Assembly: GCA_905479325.1 (NCBI GenBank) | Contig: CAJQLW010000048.1 | Span: 1-64,000, forward strand | Reading direction: 5' to 3' | DNA: 64,000 nucleotides | DNA from: an uncultured Flavobacteriales bacterium | Lineage (GTDB): Bacteria > Bacteroidota > Bacteroidia > Flavobacteriales_E > Vicingaceae | Shown: positions 1,248 through 32,619 of the stretch, piece by piece | Position numbering within the stretch: the first letter of the stretch is position 1 | How the letters are laid out: each line of letters starts with the position of its first letter | Made by a program: the position numbers and the translations under genes | The notes under the pieces: model-generated | Database searches by the model: none | What the model was told of the DNA's origin: nothing | The model's input: the letters and a program-made list of their open reading frames with translations, nothing else

Positions 1248-1790
1248 ATGACTGTTAGCAGTAGCATCCAGCAAAAGAAAAAAATATTTGAGTTGCCTTA
1301 TCATAAGGACCAACTTGAGTACTGGGGTCCTGTGAATCATGTTTTTGCTGATTCGTTTGTTACAATGGGGCATAGTTTTATATATCAGTATTTTAAAAAT
1401 CTAGATCATAAGCTTTTAAAGTCTGTTTTTTCCTCTTTCGTTGAAATGGTTCAGAATGTTTCAGAGTATAACGAAGAGAGTTTTAAAGAGAATTACCCTC
1501 AATCTTACCTTAGTCTGAAAGATGGAGGAGATCACATATACATAAATACAATCAATAAAATTAAAACTGAGGATAAACTATCAGTTCAATCAATTTTTGA
1601 AAAAGCATTTTCGGTTCCTGAGGAAGGGTTGCAAGCTGAGTACAAACGCTTGTTATTTGAAGGTAAGAGTCTGGGGTTAATAATGCTACGTAAACTAATA
1701 AATGCTTCAGTTGACTTCACTTTTTCTGAAAATGATGAAGGTGAAATTTGGCTAAGTGTTGATTTAAAAATAAGATATGGAAATACTTAA
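1248..1790 (+). CDS. SiaB-like protein kinase (DUF6272 type)
   Basis: A 180-residue protein resembling SiaB-family kinases, which phosphorylate the partner SiaC and so set the activity of a diguanylate cyclase (known for the SiaABCD system of Pseudomonas). Visible signatures are the helix SVFSSFVEMVQNVSEYNEES, matching the family's conserved F-x-E-x-x-Q-N-x-x-x-Y block, and the C-terminal FEGKSLGLIMLRKLINASVDFTF segment, matching the GxGLGLI-type nucleotide-binding end. The next gene, overlapping by 14 bases, is a SiaC-like gene with two stop codons, so this kinase appears to have lost its local substrate. No SiaA-type phosphatase or GGDEF gene is in the window. Assignment is from remembered family patterns. 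Confidence 0.65.
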   Translation: MTVSSSIQQKKKIFELPYHKDQLEYWGPVNHVFADSFVTMGHSFIYQYFKNLDHKLLKSVFSSFVEMVQNVSEYNEESFKENYPQSYLSLKDGGDHIYINTINKIKTEDKLSVQSIFEKAFSVPEEGLQAEYKRLLFEGKSLGLIMLRKLINASVDFTFSENDEGEIWLSVDLKIRYGNT

Positions 1791-2157
1791 TATAGAACCA
1801 TTTTTACAAACTCCTGAAATTAGTTTTAACCATGAAACAGGAATTTTGTATTTGTCAGGCAAGTCTTATCCCGCTTATGCGATAGAGTTTTATAAGCCAA
1901 TTATTGATTGGAGCAGATAGTATTGTCAAAACCCTGCAGCAAAAACTACTTTGATTTGCGAGATTGAATACCTAAACTCTGCCTCTCAAAAACAATTGGT
2001 TGAATTGATACTGGTTTTTAAGCCGTAATATGACAGTGGAAAGAACTTCGTAGTAAAATGGAAGTACGAAGAAGGAGATGACGACATATTATCTGTTGGT
2101 GAACTAGTAGAGCACGAGCTAGAAATTCCTTTCGAATATCAAGAAGTTCAGTTCTAA
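1777..2157 (+). pseudogene. SiaC-like (DUF1987) regulatory phosphoprotein, two in-frame stops
   Basis: Reading from the ATG at 1777 gives a DUF1987/SiaC-like protein of normal length (126 codons plus stop) that is interrupted twice: TAG at 1918-1920 (codon 48) and TAA at 2026-2028 (codon 84). Both sides keep the family pattern in one frame. Before the first stop come MEILNIEPFLQTPEISFNH and FYKPIIDW; after it come NPAAKTTLICEIEYLNSAS, KNFVVKWKYEEGDDD and VPFEFxS-like LEIPFEYQEVQF. There are no indels. SiaC proteins are phospho-switches acted on by SiaB kinase and SiaA phosphatase. Two nonsense mutations in an otherwise clean frame suggest recent inactivation. Recoding is unlikely, because both TAA and TAG end intact genes here. 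Confidence 0.8.
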
Positions 2158-2161
2158 CAGG

Positions 2162-3802
2162 CTACTTATTTTTATAAACAACAACTCCGTCAACATAAGT
2201 AGATAATACTTGAGTTTGTAAAATTTTTGATTCTTCTATTTTCATCAAGTCTTTGTCCAAGATAATAAAGTCGGCAACTTTATTTTTTTCTAAGCTACCT
2301 CTAAGTGTGTCTTCAAAGTTTGCCATGGCCGCCCAAATGGTCATTCCTCTCAATGCTTCTTCTCTACTCAATGCATTTTCAGTTTGAAATCCTTCTTCAG
2401 GCTCACCTGAACCATCTTTCCGAACCGTTGCCGCATAAAGTGTTTTTAAAGGATCTATATCTTCTATAGGGAAGTCTGTTCCCAAGGCAATAATGCCATT
2501 CATGGCGAGCAGCTTTTTATAAGCGTAAGCATTTTTCATTCTTTCTTCACCAAGTCTTTCGTGCGCCCATGGCATGTCAGAGGTTGCATGGGTTGGTTGA
2601 ACTGAAGGAATGATGGTATAGGCTCTAAATTTTTCAAAATCTTCGGGATTTAAAATTTGCGCATGTTCTATTCTCCAGCGTCTGTCGTTGGTTCCTTTTA
2701 GTATTTCGCCATAAGCGTTTAGCACCTCCCGATTTGCGCCATCGCCTATACAGTGGGTGTTTACTTGAAAACCTTTTTCATACATTAACCTTAAATCGGC
2801 TAAAAAATCTAATGAGTCTAGGGTAGAAAGTCCGGTGTTGTTTGCATCATCGTGATAGGGGTCTAATAGTTTTGCTCCTCTAGAGCCAAGAGCTCCGTCT
2901 GCAAAAAACTTAAACGCATGTATGTTTAACTTTTCAGTGATGTATGGCCCGACTTCTAAAAACTCTTTTCTATTAGCTTCTGAAGGAGCAAGCATGCCGT
3001 AAATGTTCATTTTTAACTCACCTGACTTTTGCATGCTGTCAATAACATGAACCATTTCGTTTTCTAAAAAAGCATCGGCCACCGAAGTCAATCCCTTAGC
3101 AAAACACATTTCTTGAGCTTTATTTAAAGCAAAAATCATTTGTTCTTTGCTCATTTTCGGAATTTTATCCGAAACAAGTGAAATAGCCTTGTCAATTAAC
3201 ACTCCAGTTGGCTCGTTCGCTTCCATGCGAATTACACCACCCTCAACGGTTGTGTTGCTATTAATGCCGGCAATTTGAAGGGCCGTTTTGCTAACTATTG
3301 CTGCATGAAAGTCAATTCTGGTTAAAAGGATGGGAGTTGTTGGAAATCGTTTGTTTAATTCTTGATTTGTCGGAAACTCTTTATCTGCCCAATCGTTCTG
3401 ATCCCAGCCTCTACCAACAATCCATTCACTTTTGTTGTTTTTTGAAAACGCTTCTACTTTATCCAGTACTTCTTCCCAGCTTTTGGTGCCAACTAAATCA
3501 ACTTCATTAAAGGTGTTCCCGTACCATAAAAAATGACAATGCGCATCAATAAAACCGGGGTAAATTGATTTTAACTGGGCATCTATAATTTCTTTCGATT
3601 CGTAGCGGTTTTTAAGTTCATTGTTCGGCCCTATGTCAATGATTTTGCCATCTTTTATAGCCATGGCTTCGAATACATCAAAATTTTCATTCACTGTGTA
3701 AATCTTGGCATTGTGAATTAGTAAGTCGGCAGTTTCGGTGTAATAACAAGAATTCATAAGCAATAGTAAAAGGCTAAAAATAATGGTGAAAAAGGTTTTC
3801 AT
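2162..3802 (-). CDS. Amidohydrolase (YtcJ/NfdA-like), predicted lipoprotein
   Basis: A 546-residue metal-dependent hydrolase of the Amidohydro_3 type. The first 19 residues form a lipoprotein signal ending in LLLMNSC, so the enzyme should be anchored in the cell envelope. The order is: N-terminal composite beta-sandwich (ADLLIHNAKIYTVNE), metal motif DAHCH around residues 87-91, VGRGWDQNDW, the mid-protein NTHCIGDGAN, RIEHAQIL, and LGTDFPIED near the C-terminus, as in N-substituted formamide deformylase relatives. Substrate unknown. It overlaps the upstream 435-residue membrane protein by four bases (3799-3802), which suggests translational coupling. Confidence 0.85.
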   Translation of the reverse strand: MKTFFTIIFSLLLLLMNSCYYTETADLLIHNAKIYTVNENFDVFEAMAIKDGKIIDIGPNNELKNRYESKEIIDAQLKSIYPGFIDAHCHFLWYGNTFNEVDLVGTKSWEEVLDKVEAFSKNNKSEWIVGRGWDQNDWADKEFPTNQELNKRFPTTPILLTRIDFHAAIVSKTALQIAGINSNTTVEGGVIRMEANEPTGVLIDKAISLVSDKIPKMSKEQMIFALNKAQEMCFAKGLTSVADAFLENEMVHVIDSMQKSGELKMNIYGMLAPSEANRKEFLEVGPYITEKLNIHAFKFFADGALGSRGAKLLDPYHDDANNTGLSTLDSLDFLADLRLMYEKGFQVNTHCIGDGANREVLNAYGEILKGTNDRRWRIEHAQILNPEDFEKFRAYTIIPSVQPTHATSDMPWAHERLGEERMKNAYAYKKLLAMNGIIALGTDFPIEDIDPLKTLYAATVRKDGSGEPEEGFQTENALSREEALRGMTIWAAMANFEDTLRGSLEKNKVADFIILDKDLMKIEESKILQTQVLSTYVDGVVVYKNK

Positions 3803-7427: not shown

Positions 7428-8309
7428 GTGAAAATATACATCATTCTCCTTGTTACAATTCTTTTTAGCAATACTGTAATTGGTCAAGAAAAAAATCCGG
7501 CGGAAGAGAGTACACCTTCAACTAAGAGTTTTTCTCTTTCGGAGAACAAGCACAAATTTTTCTTTTATTGGGGATACAACAGAAGTAACTACGCAAAAAG
7601 TGACATTACTTGGAAAGGCCCGGGATATAATTTCACCCTATCTGATGCTGAGGCTACAGATTTGAATCAATCCGGTTTTGGGCCTAATTACTACAACCCA
7701 TTGTTGTTTACGATTCCTCAATTTGACATTAGAATTGGGTTCTTTTTAAATGATAAGTACGCCATTGGTGCGGGTTGGGATCATATGAAATACAGAACAA
7801 AAGAAGGTTCAACCGCAGTATTTTCAGGTAGTGTTGACCCTAACGTTTCTCAAGAATACAGCGCTTATAAAGATGGAGACATTGTCACCATCGATAATTC
7901 CTACCTACGTATGGAACATTCAGATGGGTTGAATGTGTTGAATTTCAATATTGAACGACATGATTTACTGCACTCCCTATGGTCTGAAAAAGTCGGATTA
8001 AAGCTTGTTTCAGGTTTGGGGTTTGGAGTAGCCATGCCATGGACAAATTCGATAACATTTGGCGTTAGGAATGATGATCGCCCTCATTTTTCTGGAGTAG
8101 GGGCGCACATTTTTGTAGCGCCTGAGTTTGTTTTTTACAAACGATTTTTTGTTAGAACTACGCTACAAGGCGGAATGGTTAGCATGTGGGACATAGCAAT
8201 TACACCCAAATCAGATAAGTCGGATACGCATGCAGAGCAAACCATTTGGTACCTAGAAAGGTCGCTTGTGGTAGGTTACCGGTTTTACATTTTTGCGCCA
8301 AAAAGCTAA
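7428..8309 (+). CDS. Outer-membrane beta-barrel protein, unknown function
   Basis: A 293-residue protein whose GTG start directly follows the purL stop codon, so it is probably translationally coupled. Residues 1-20 form a signal peptide (MKIYIILLVTILFSNTVIGQ). The rest alternates polar and hydrophobic residues with aromatic strand ends (for example KFFFYWGYNRSNY, FDIRIGFFLNDKYAIGAGWDH) and ends in LVVGYRFYIFAPKS, consistent with a small outer-membrane barrel. No known domain recognised. It is convergent with the broken LRR gene, overlapping its end by four bases. A functional link to purine synthesis is not obvious. Confidence 0.75.
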   Translation: MKIYIILLVTILFSNTVIGQEKNPAEESTPSTKSFSLSENKHKFFFYWGYNRSNYAKSDITWKGPGYNFTLSDAEATDLNQSGFGPNYYNPLLFTIPQFDIRIGFFLNDKYAIGAGWDHMKYRTKEGSTAVFSGSVDPNVSQEYSAYKDGDIVTIDNSYLRMEHSDGLNVLNFNIERHDLLHSLWSEKVGLKLVSGLGFGVAMPWTNSITFGVRNDDRPHFSGVGAHIFVAPEFVFYKRFFVRTTLQGGMVSMWDIAITPKSDKSDTHAEQTIWYLERSLVVGYRFYIFAPKS

Positions 8310-9053
8310 TACCTCGAACGAACTATTCTAAAGTTAGGTCTTGGCATTATAGTTAAGCAAGGGGGTACCAGTTGAGTTTCGTCAACATACAAATTATCTA
8401 ATTTTTTTAACCTGCAAAAGCTGGAGGGCAGCCAAAGATCTCCACCATTTCGTGCAATGTCTAGTTCGGTTAGCCCTGTCAATTGCCCAATTTCAGGTGG
8501 AATTTTAATAAGGTTATTCCTCCCGATGATAAGAATCCTGAGGTTTGTCAACTTCCCAATTTCTGGTGGTAAACTCGTTAGGTTATTAAATTCCAAATAA
8601 AGTTCTCGCAAGTTTTCTAAGTCTCCAATTTCAGGAGGCAAGGTGTACAAGTTATTGAATTGTAATTTCAACACTTTTAAATTTTTCAGTTTGCCAATTT
8701 CTGGGGGAAGGCTTTTTATGCTGTTTGAATTTTAATGATAAAAATTCTAGGCTCTCAAGCTCACCTATGGCCGCTGGCAAAGAGTCAACATCATTATTGC
8801 TCAATACAAGTCGCTTAAGCTTTTTTAGTTCTCCAATTTCAGATGAAACAGTGGTAATTTTATTGTTAAATAAGTACAGTTTTTCTAAGTTCTCAAATTC
8901 TTCAATTCGTTGAGGTGTAGAAATAAAATTGCCGTTAGATAGCTTGAGCTTTGTAATTTTTTCAGGCTCACGCAAACTCTCTTGATAGTTTTTATAGGGA
9001 GCACAAGCAACTAGGAACACTAGAGCCCAGAGTAATTTAATGTTAACCTTCAC
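8306..9053 (-). pseudogene. Leucine-rich-repeat lipoprotein, frameshifted by one extra base
   Basis: Two overlapping minus-strand frames (9053 down to 8652, and 8674 down to 8306) encode one LRR protein. From a GTG at 9053, MKVNIKLLWALVFLVAC is a lipoprotein signal, followed by 23-residue repeats of the type LxxLYLxxNxLxxLPxEIGxL. The repeat pattern leaves the frame after LEFLSLKF and resumes in the other frame at SIKSLPPEIG. Removing one base from the run TTT at 8724-8726 (+ strand) restores a continuous frame of 248 residues with exact 23-residue spacing. The ends are otherwise complete, with C-terminal RIVRSRY. This is either a recent frameshift or a sequencing error in a short homopolymer. 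LRR proteins usually mediate binding; the partner is unknown. Confidence 0.8.
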
Positions 9054-25603: not shown

Positions 25604-25893
25604 TCATAATCCTGTAATGCTAGCGATTATAAGCCTGTCGAAGAGTTTTTCTCCAAAATATCTTCTATTCAGCTCGTAACAAAATTCATCTAAATACAAT
25701 TACAAATATTTACCTTTTATTTTGAGATAGTTAACTAGAATATCTCTTTTAGCATTGCTTATTGTTATGTGAAACCATTTAAACGTTTCTTCTGTTGTTT
25801 TTTATTCGATTTCGCTGTAATGTGCAACCCCACATAGTTAACTATATCAACTTAGGATGCACTCTTATCTGTAAACACAATTCCTTGTCTCAT
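25604..25893 (-). pseudogene. IS1595-family (ISXO2-like) transposase remnant
   Basis: Minus-strand translation gives recognisable C-terminal IS1595 transposase sequence in pieces. GIVFTDKSAS, then a TAA where Tyr is expected, then VDIVNYVGLHITAKSNKK; a frameshift in an A-run (six A, seven expected) leads into ETFKWFHITISNAKRD; then KGKYL, a TAA where Gln is expected, and LYLDEFCYELNRRYFGEKLFDRL. Family members have the core W-x-H-I-x-x-S-N-A-K-R and Y-L-D-E-F-x-Y-x-x-N-R-R. At least two nonsense changes, one frameshift and a missing N-terminus show that it is inactive. Family identified from memory of the motifs. Confidence 0.8.
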
Positions 25894-26176
25894 GAATTGG
25901 ATTGACAATGGTATTATTAATTTGATCTTTATGAACATATTAAAGATCTTTGATTTTACTAATTTGTTATAAAAGAAACTTAAAGTAATGGATATTTCAA
26001 GAGACTATGTATTTACGAAAGCAGAAAGCCTTCATAAACTTTAATTGTCTTATAATCTTTCTGGGTGCTATAAGGTAGGCATAAATAGCGAAATAAATAA
26101 TAAGAGGGATGGAACTATATAACAACTATAGAGTTTTAAAATCATATTTCTATTTGAAATTTAAAAATAGGCTCTA

Positions 26177-31987: not shown

Positions 31988-32040
31988 GTTCAGATTTGAA
32001 TTTGACCAAGTAAATTTGAATTAAGCTATAACGGGAAATG

Positions 32041-32619
32041 TTATTTAAACAAATTCATATCAGCCACATATTCAGCTACTAGAGATGGCATGTAATGCTG
32101 AACATTTCTCCCATCTATAATGGCTTTTCGTATAAACGAAGATGAAATCTTCATCACTGGAGCTTCAACATAATTTACTTTATAATGGCGTTTCAAATCT
32201 CCTCCTTCATTAGAGTCCATTCTTGGGTACACATACAATTCATGGTTTTCTAAAATAACATCGTGATTTTTCCATTTGTGAAAATGGTTTAAATTATCTG
32301 CACCCATAATTAGAGAGAACTTATTTTTTGGGAACTTCTCTCTCAAATAGACTAATGTGTCAACTGTGTAATTTGGTTGGGGCAAATCAAATTCAATGTT
32401 TGAAGCTTTTAATCTAGGATCGTCCCCTATGGCCAATTGCAACAAATGTAAACGATCGTAATCTTTCAAAATAGAGTCTTTTTGTTTGAAAGGGTTTTGA
32501 GGAGTCACCACCAACCAAACTTCATCCATATCGGTAAACTCCACCATGTAGTTCGCAATCACCATGTGCCCTACATGAACAGGGTTGTAAGTGCCAAAGA
32601 ACAAGCCTATTTTTTTCAT
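32041..32619 (-). CDS. nadD: Nicotinate-nucleotide adenylyltransferase
   Basis: A 192-residue nucleotidyltransferase of NAD synthesis (NaMN plus ATP to deamido-NAD). The motif GLFFGTYNPVHVGHMVIANYM (GTFNPxHxGH type) is at residues 4-24, with LIMGADNLNHFHKWK and the C-terminal ISSSFIRKAI (SSTxIR type). Its ATG shares one base with the gmk stop (TAATG), so the two are translationally coupled. Confidence 0.95.
   Translation of the reverse strand: MKKIGLFFGTYNPVHVGHMVIANYMVEFTDMDEVWLVVTPQNPFKQKDSILKDYDRLHLLQLAIGDDPRLKASNIEFDLPQPNYTVDTLVYLREKFPKNKFSLIMGADNLNHFHKWKNHDVILENHELYVYPRMDSNEGGDLKRHYKVNYVEAPVMKISSSFIRKAIIDGRNVQHYMPSLVAEYVADMNLFK

Follow-up and report, generated by a model that had tools for sequence, protein, structure and literature searches.

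A siaC-like gene near the start of the window, by which we mean the whole stretch of 64,000 nt analyzed here (contig C48, positions 1 to 64000), has probably become a real pseudogene, and a recent one, so that the siaB-like gene overlapping it would be left without its cognate substrate. A second pair of the same two families is intact elsewhere in the genome (G000), which belongs to an uncultured Flavobacteriales bacterium of the family Vicingaceae and comprises 2.71 Mb in 96 contigs, with an estimated completeness of 92%. We call the window pair B-type (siaB-B and siaC-B) and the second pair A-type. In Pseudomonas, SiaC is the substrate of SiaB, which adds a phosphate to its Thr68, and the PP2C phosphatase SiaA takes this phosphate off again. 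SiaC switches on the diguanylate cyclase SiaD only while unphosphorylated (PMC7647112, PMC8457831). Our literature search found nothing on pseudogenes in Vicingaceae, nor on DUF1987 in Bacteroidetes.

Results

The siaC-B frame lies on the forward strand at positions 1777 to 2157 (126 codons), beginning with an ATG (MEILNIEPF...) and closing with a terminal TAA at 2155 to 2157. Two in-frame stops interrupt it, a TAG at codon 48 (1918 to 1920), where the four intact members of the genus have Glu or Lys, and a TAA at codon 84 (2026 to 2028), where the same four have Leu. Alignment to the intact relatives revealed no indels in the window gene, and the match to the Pfam SiaC profile (PF09345, DUF1987) runs across both stops with 103.4 bits against a cut-off of 24.5. 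The gene thus has no uninterrupted coding frame and is a pseudogene of the SiaC family. An earlier note, made from the sequence alone, had described a frame free of indels, broken at codons 48 and 84 and still family-like on either side of each stop, beside an intact overlapping kinase gene, and all of these points hold.

Apart from the stops, siaC-B is well preserved. Over the remaining 124 codons its amino acid identity to each of the intact genus copies, four in number, lies between 0.86 and 0.91. At the 53 columns invariant among the 11 intact B-type orthologues it deviates once, with Tyr at codon 34 (1876 to 1878) where all 11 have Asp (D34Y); the intact copies show 0 to 5 deviations in the same leave-one-out count, and there is therefore no sign of a long relaxation of siaC. 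Codon 68 (1978 to 1980), downstream of the first stop, encodes Ser and aligns with Thr68, the residue phosphorylated in Pseudomonas SiaC (PMC7647112); the frame thus keeps a Thr/Ser acceptor at this position. With the remaining frame ∼90% identical to its relatives, the break is probably recent.

The siaB-B gene occupies positions 1248 to 1790 of the forward strand and encodes 180 amino acids in an intact frame without a stop. It matches Pfam DUF6272 (PF19788) with 49.6 bits against a cut-off of 26.6, and its end overlaps the start of siaC-B by 14 nt (1777 to 1790), an arrangement also seen in the four genus members with intact pairs. A structural model of SiaB-B built from ten aligned proteins reached a pLDDT of 88.4, and a structure search with this model returned SiaB of the SiaB-SiaC complex as the top PDB match (6kko_A, TM 0.71 to 0.74), with E values of 1.6e-08 and 1.4e-07 for 6kko_A and 6kko_B, which assigns the SiaB fold to the protein. 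The next best structural matches (1til and 6m37) belong to the SpoIIAB/SpoIIAA and RsbW/RsbV partner switches, which have sigma factors as their targets and, unlike the window pair, come from other sequence families.

Compared with the A-type protein, all nine aligned B-type SiaB proteins lack about seven residues of a glycine-rich segment, which we take to be the ATP lid, and a comparable gap separates SiaB-B from 6kko_A. B-type SiaB proteins thus do not have the glycine-rich lid segment of the Pseudomonas kind and, since these residues are absent, their kinase activity is plausible but not assured. We considered damage to the lid specific to the window gene and rejected it, because the short lid and a Lys found there are common to other B-type proteins. 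SiaB-B keeps the conserved QN of its motif and, in a comparison of ten B-type proteins, departs from the other nine at only 1 of the 23 positions where these are invariant.

Of the two partners, SiaB changes faster: its amino acid identity between the window and the genus members with intact pairs is 0.56 to 0.68, below the range given above for SiaC. For branch dN/dS, a codon model in which the G000 branch had its own free rate was fitted to siaB, siaC, and the neighboring cupin and amidohydrolase genes of five genomes. G003, with its broken pair, was excluded, both window stop codons were removed from siaC, and the amidohydrolase alignment kept 311 of 589 columns, mainly owing to the end of the G005 contig. 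The branch lengths showed that synonymous sites are saturated, and hence the fits allow no claim of either selection or relaxation for siaB.

The pair sits 1.2 to 2.2 kb from the contig start, between a Cupin_5 (DUF985) gene on the forward strand (594 to 1091) and an Amidohydro_3 gene on the reverse strand (2162 to 3802), both identified by profile match and synteny as conserved neighbors. The loci read share the order fadD-like, cupin, siaB, siaC, amidohydrolase, membrane protein, and purL (names such as fadD and purL being assigned from translations), except that the cupin gene or siaB is absent in some and locus ends truncate others. No SpoIIE-type (PP2C) phosphatase gene stands beside the window pair. 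In G001 such a gene directly adjoins the B-type pair, which links a phosphatase to the pair indirectly only.

We followed the pair through 46 genomes of the family, six of which, G000 included, belong to the genus (g1). Both B-type genes are open in G001, G002, G004, and G005, and both are broken in G003. In the family as a whole a B-type siaC profile found 13 carriers, 11 of them with an open gene (G036 is counted here, as its TAA, behind codon 124, is the regular end of the gene), and the broken copies are confined to G000 and G003. An open siaB lies beside siaC-B in ten of the 13 carriers (G000, G001, G002, G004, G005, G019, G035, G038, G039, and G040); in G009 siaB is matched without a stop, though without an early ATG, and in G036 no siaB was found beside siaC-B. 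At a locus taken to be that of contig C53 in G036 (L124, positions 1043 to 2022), siaC-B is kept and a gap of ∼105 nt separates it from the cupin gene with no siaB between them, the reverse of the situation in the window, and this shows that loss can also run the opposite way. In G003, which is 84% complete, we found no intact SiaC-family or DUF6272 gene, unlike its genus mates. G005 holds the relic of a further SiaC-family gene, with in-frame stops, behind a secA-like gene (L025, positions 8570 to 8860, contig C13).

The genome contains exactly two matches to each family, the window pair and the A-type pair on contig C2 (26724 to 27536). The other SiaC paralogue that the earlier note envisaged as a possible target of the kinase therefore exists: siaC-A (C2:26724-27077) is intact and adjoins its own intact siaB. 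The two pairs are alike in their families and in having siaB ahead of siaC. The A-type pair differs from the window pair in that both its frames are intact, its lid is of full glycine-rich length, its acceptor is Thr68, and its neighbors are others. Position 68 is Ser in all 11 intact B-type SiaC proteins as well as in the window frame, and the two SiaC types are only ∼34% identical (the A-type protein being compared with the B-type sequence of G002).

We compared the window with the syntenic stretch of G004, in which 60 of the 66 ORFs of at least 100 amino acids matched the window. Among these 60, nonsense codons inside the body of a conserved gene occur in siaC alone, which argues that its stops are not due to chance. 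The remaining matches with stops are a gene ending five residues early (32029 to 32619), an over-extended ORF with six stops, all in its 5' extension, and a degenerate transposase-like ORF with stops and a frameshift (25607 to 25938), which resembles the end of an IS1595-type transposase. In addition, an LRR protein gene (8309 to 9053) is split by a frameshift relative to G002 and G004, of one base by count.

Five SpoIIE matches were found in G000, all away from the window pair, and two of them are broken. The PAS-SpoIIE gene (G000:C62:13584-14168; ∼3730 to 6169 of L105) carries a frameshift and two nonsense codons where its G004 orthologue is open. The GAF-SpoIIE gene (G000:C13:61680-62804; minus strand, 7602 to 8799 of L106) has an 11-nt deletion near its 3' end, as counted from alignments. 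With two of five SpoIIE-type phosphatase genes also broken, the pathway is eroding in G000, and not siaC alone.

The GAF-SpoIIE gene adjoins an lpxD-like gene, occurs once each in 43 of the 46 family genomes, and among these 43 is broken or shortened only in G000, G003, and G004, all members of genus g1. A tight co-loss with siaC-B was considered, given that both genes are broken in G000 and G003 (where the GAF-SpoIIE orthologue is frameshifted), but G004 breaks the pattern, since its GAF-SpoIIE gene is frameshifted near the start and yet its siaBC pair is intact. A role of the GAF-SpoIIE protein as the B-type phosphatase was likewise not established: the gene is also present in family genomes that have no B-type siaC, and although its highest scores fall in genomes with B-type siaC, phylogeny alone would yield the same distribution.

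The earlier note had taken the SiaB/SiaC switch to control c-di-GMP synthesis and had called for a genome search for its partners. That search yielded the DUF1987 paralogue on C2 and the five SpoIIE genes, and a profile search for GGDEF (PF00990) returned no match in G000. GGDEF matches occur in 3 of the 46 family genomes while SiaC-family genes occur in 46 of 46; a c-di-GMP output should therefore not be assumed for G000. The window pair resembles the SiaABCD system of Pseudomonas aeruginosa in that a SiaB-fold kinase and a SiaC-family STAS-like protein are encoded by neighboring genes with the acceptor position aligned. It differs in lying in a genome without a GGDEF diguanylate cyclase and in having no PP2C (SpoIIE-type) phosphatase gene in an operon with it, and the B-type proteins differ in their Ser for Thr acceptor (SiaC) and shortened ATP-lid region (SiaB).

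Discussion

We consider siaC-B most likely a real pseudogene. Its frame holds two separate nonsense codons, neither arising from an indel, and is otherwise close to that of its relatives; 11 of 13 carriers have the gene open while G003 has lost both partners; a second intact pair is present in the genome; and genes of the same class are decaying there (PAS-SpoIIE on C62, GAF-SpoIIE on C13). Against this, both substitutions rest on one assembly, at a locus close to the contig start, an error of sequencing or assembly would likewise explain why the gene is so well preserved apart from its stops, and G036 retains siaC-B without siaB, a loss in the other direction. If the pseudogene reading is right, the nonsense substitutions would end the function of siaC-B, any product being limited to 47 residues and ending ahead of the acceptor at position 68. 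The siaB-B gene would be undamaged so far with its cognate substrate gone, remaining SiaC signaling, if any, would pass through the A-type pair, and siaB-B may be the next to decay.

It is rather unlikely that siaB-B is instead held under selection because it has come to phosphorylate the SiaC of the A-type pair or some other STAS-like protein. In favor of this, that SiaC is intact and carries Thr as its acceptor, the genome has two STAS matches, and siaB-B itself is free of stops, retains its QN, and departs little from the invariant columns. However, A-type SiaC has its own intact kinase gene adjoining it and is distant from the B-type protein, and a recent break of siaC-B accounts for the open siaB-B frame without selection, on which the saturated branch dN/dS has no bearing.

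We think it improbable that the stops arose as errors during sequencing, amplification, or assembly, with siaC-B intact in the cell. The preservation of the rest of siaC and the nearby contig start would fit such errors, and a G-to-T change with respect to the relatives could account for D34Y as well as for the codon 48 stop. Two stops nevertheless fall in one gene of 126 codons when internal nonsense codons are absent from every other conserved gene among the 60 matches, and genes of the same class in G000 have suffered lesions such as repeated nonsense codons or a deletion of 11 nt. Such lesions tip the balance toward a true pseudogene. Readthrough or recoding to a full-length SiaC, which the family-like frame around each stop would allow, has next to no likelihood, as TAG and TAA, which are distinct stop codons, would each have to be decoded, neighboring genes terminate normally at such stops, and intact relatives have sense codons at both sites.

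The true pseudogene that we favor appears to be a case of ordinary decay, within a lineage that is losing parts of its SiaB/SiaC switch. Within genus g1 the GAF-PP2C phosphatase is broken in three of six genomes and B-type siaC in two of six. Since SiaC-family genes are universal among the family genomes studied and GGDEF is nearly absent, the output of the switch in this family would have to be something other than c-di-GMP synthesis. With its substrate lost and its kinase still open, the window locus offers a small natural experiment on the decay of a partner switch. More tentatively, these switches might operate in the family without any diguanylate cyclase target, the phosphatase-SiaC side might be collapsing stepwise in genus g1, and the short-lid SiaB could be either a passing orphan or a protein with a role independent of its own SiaC.
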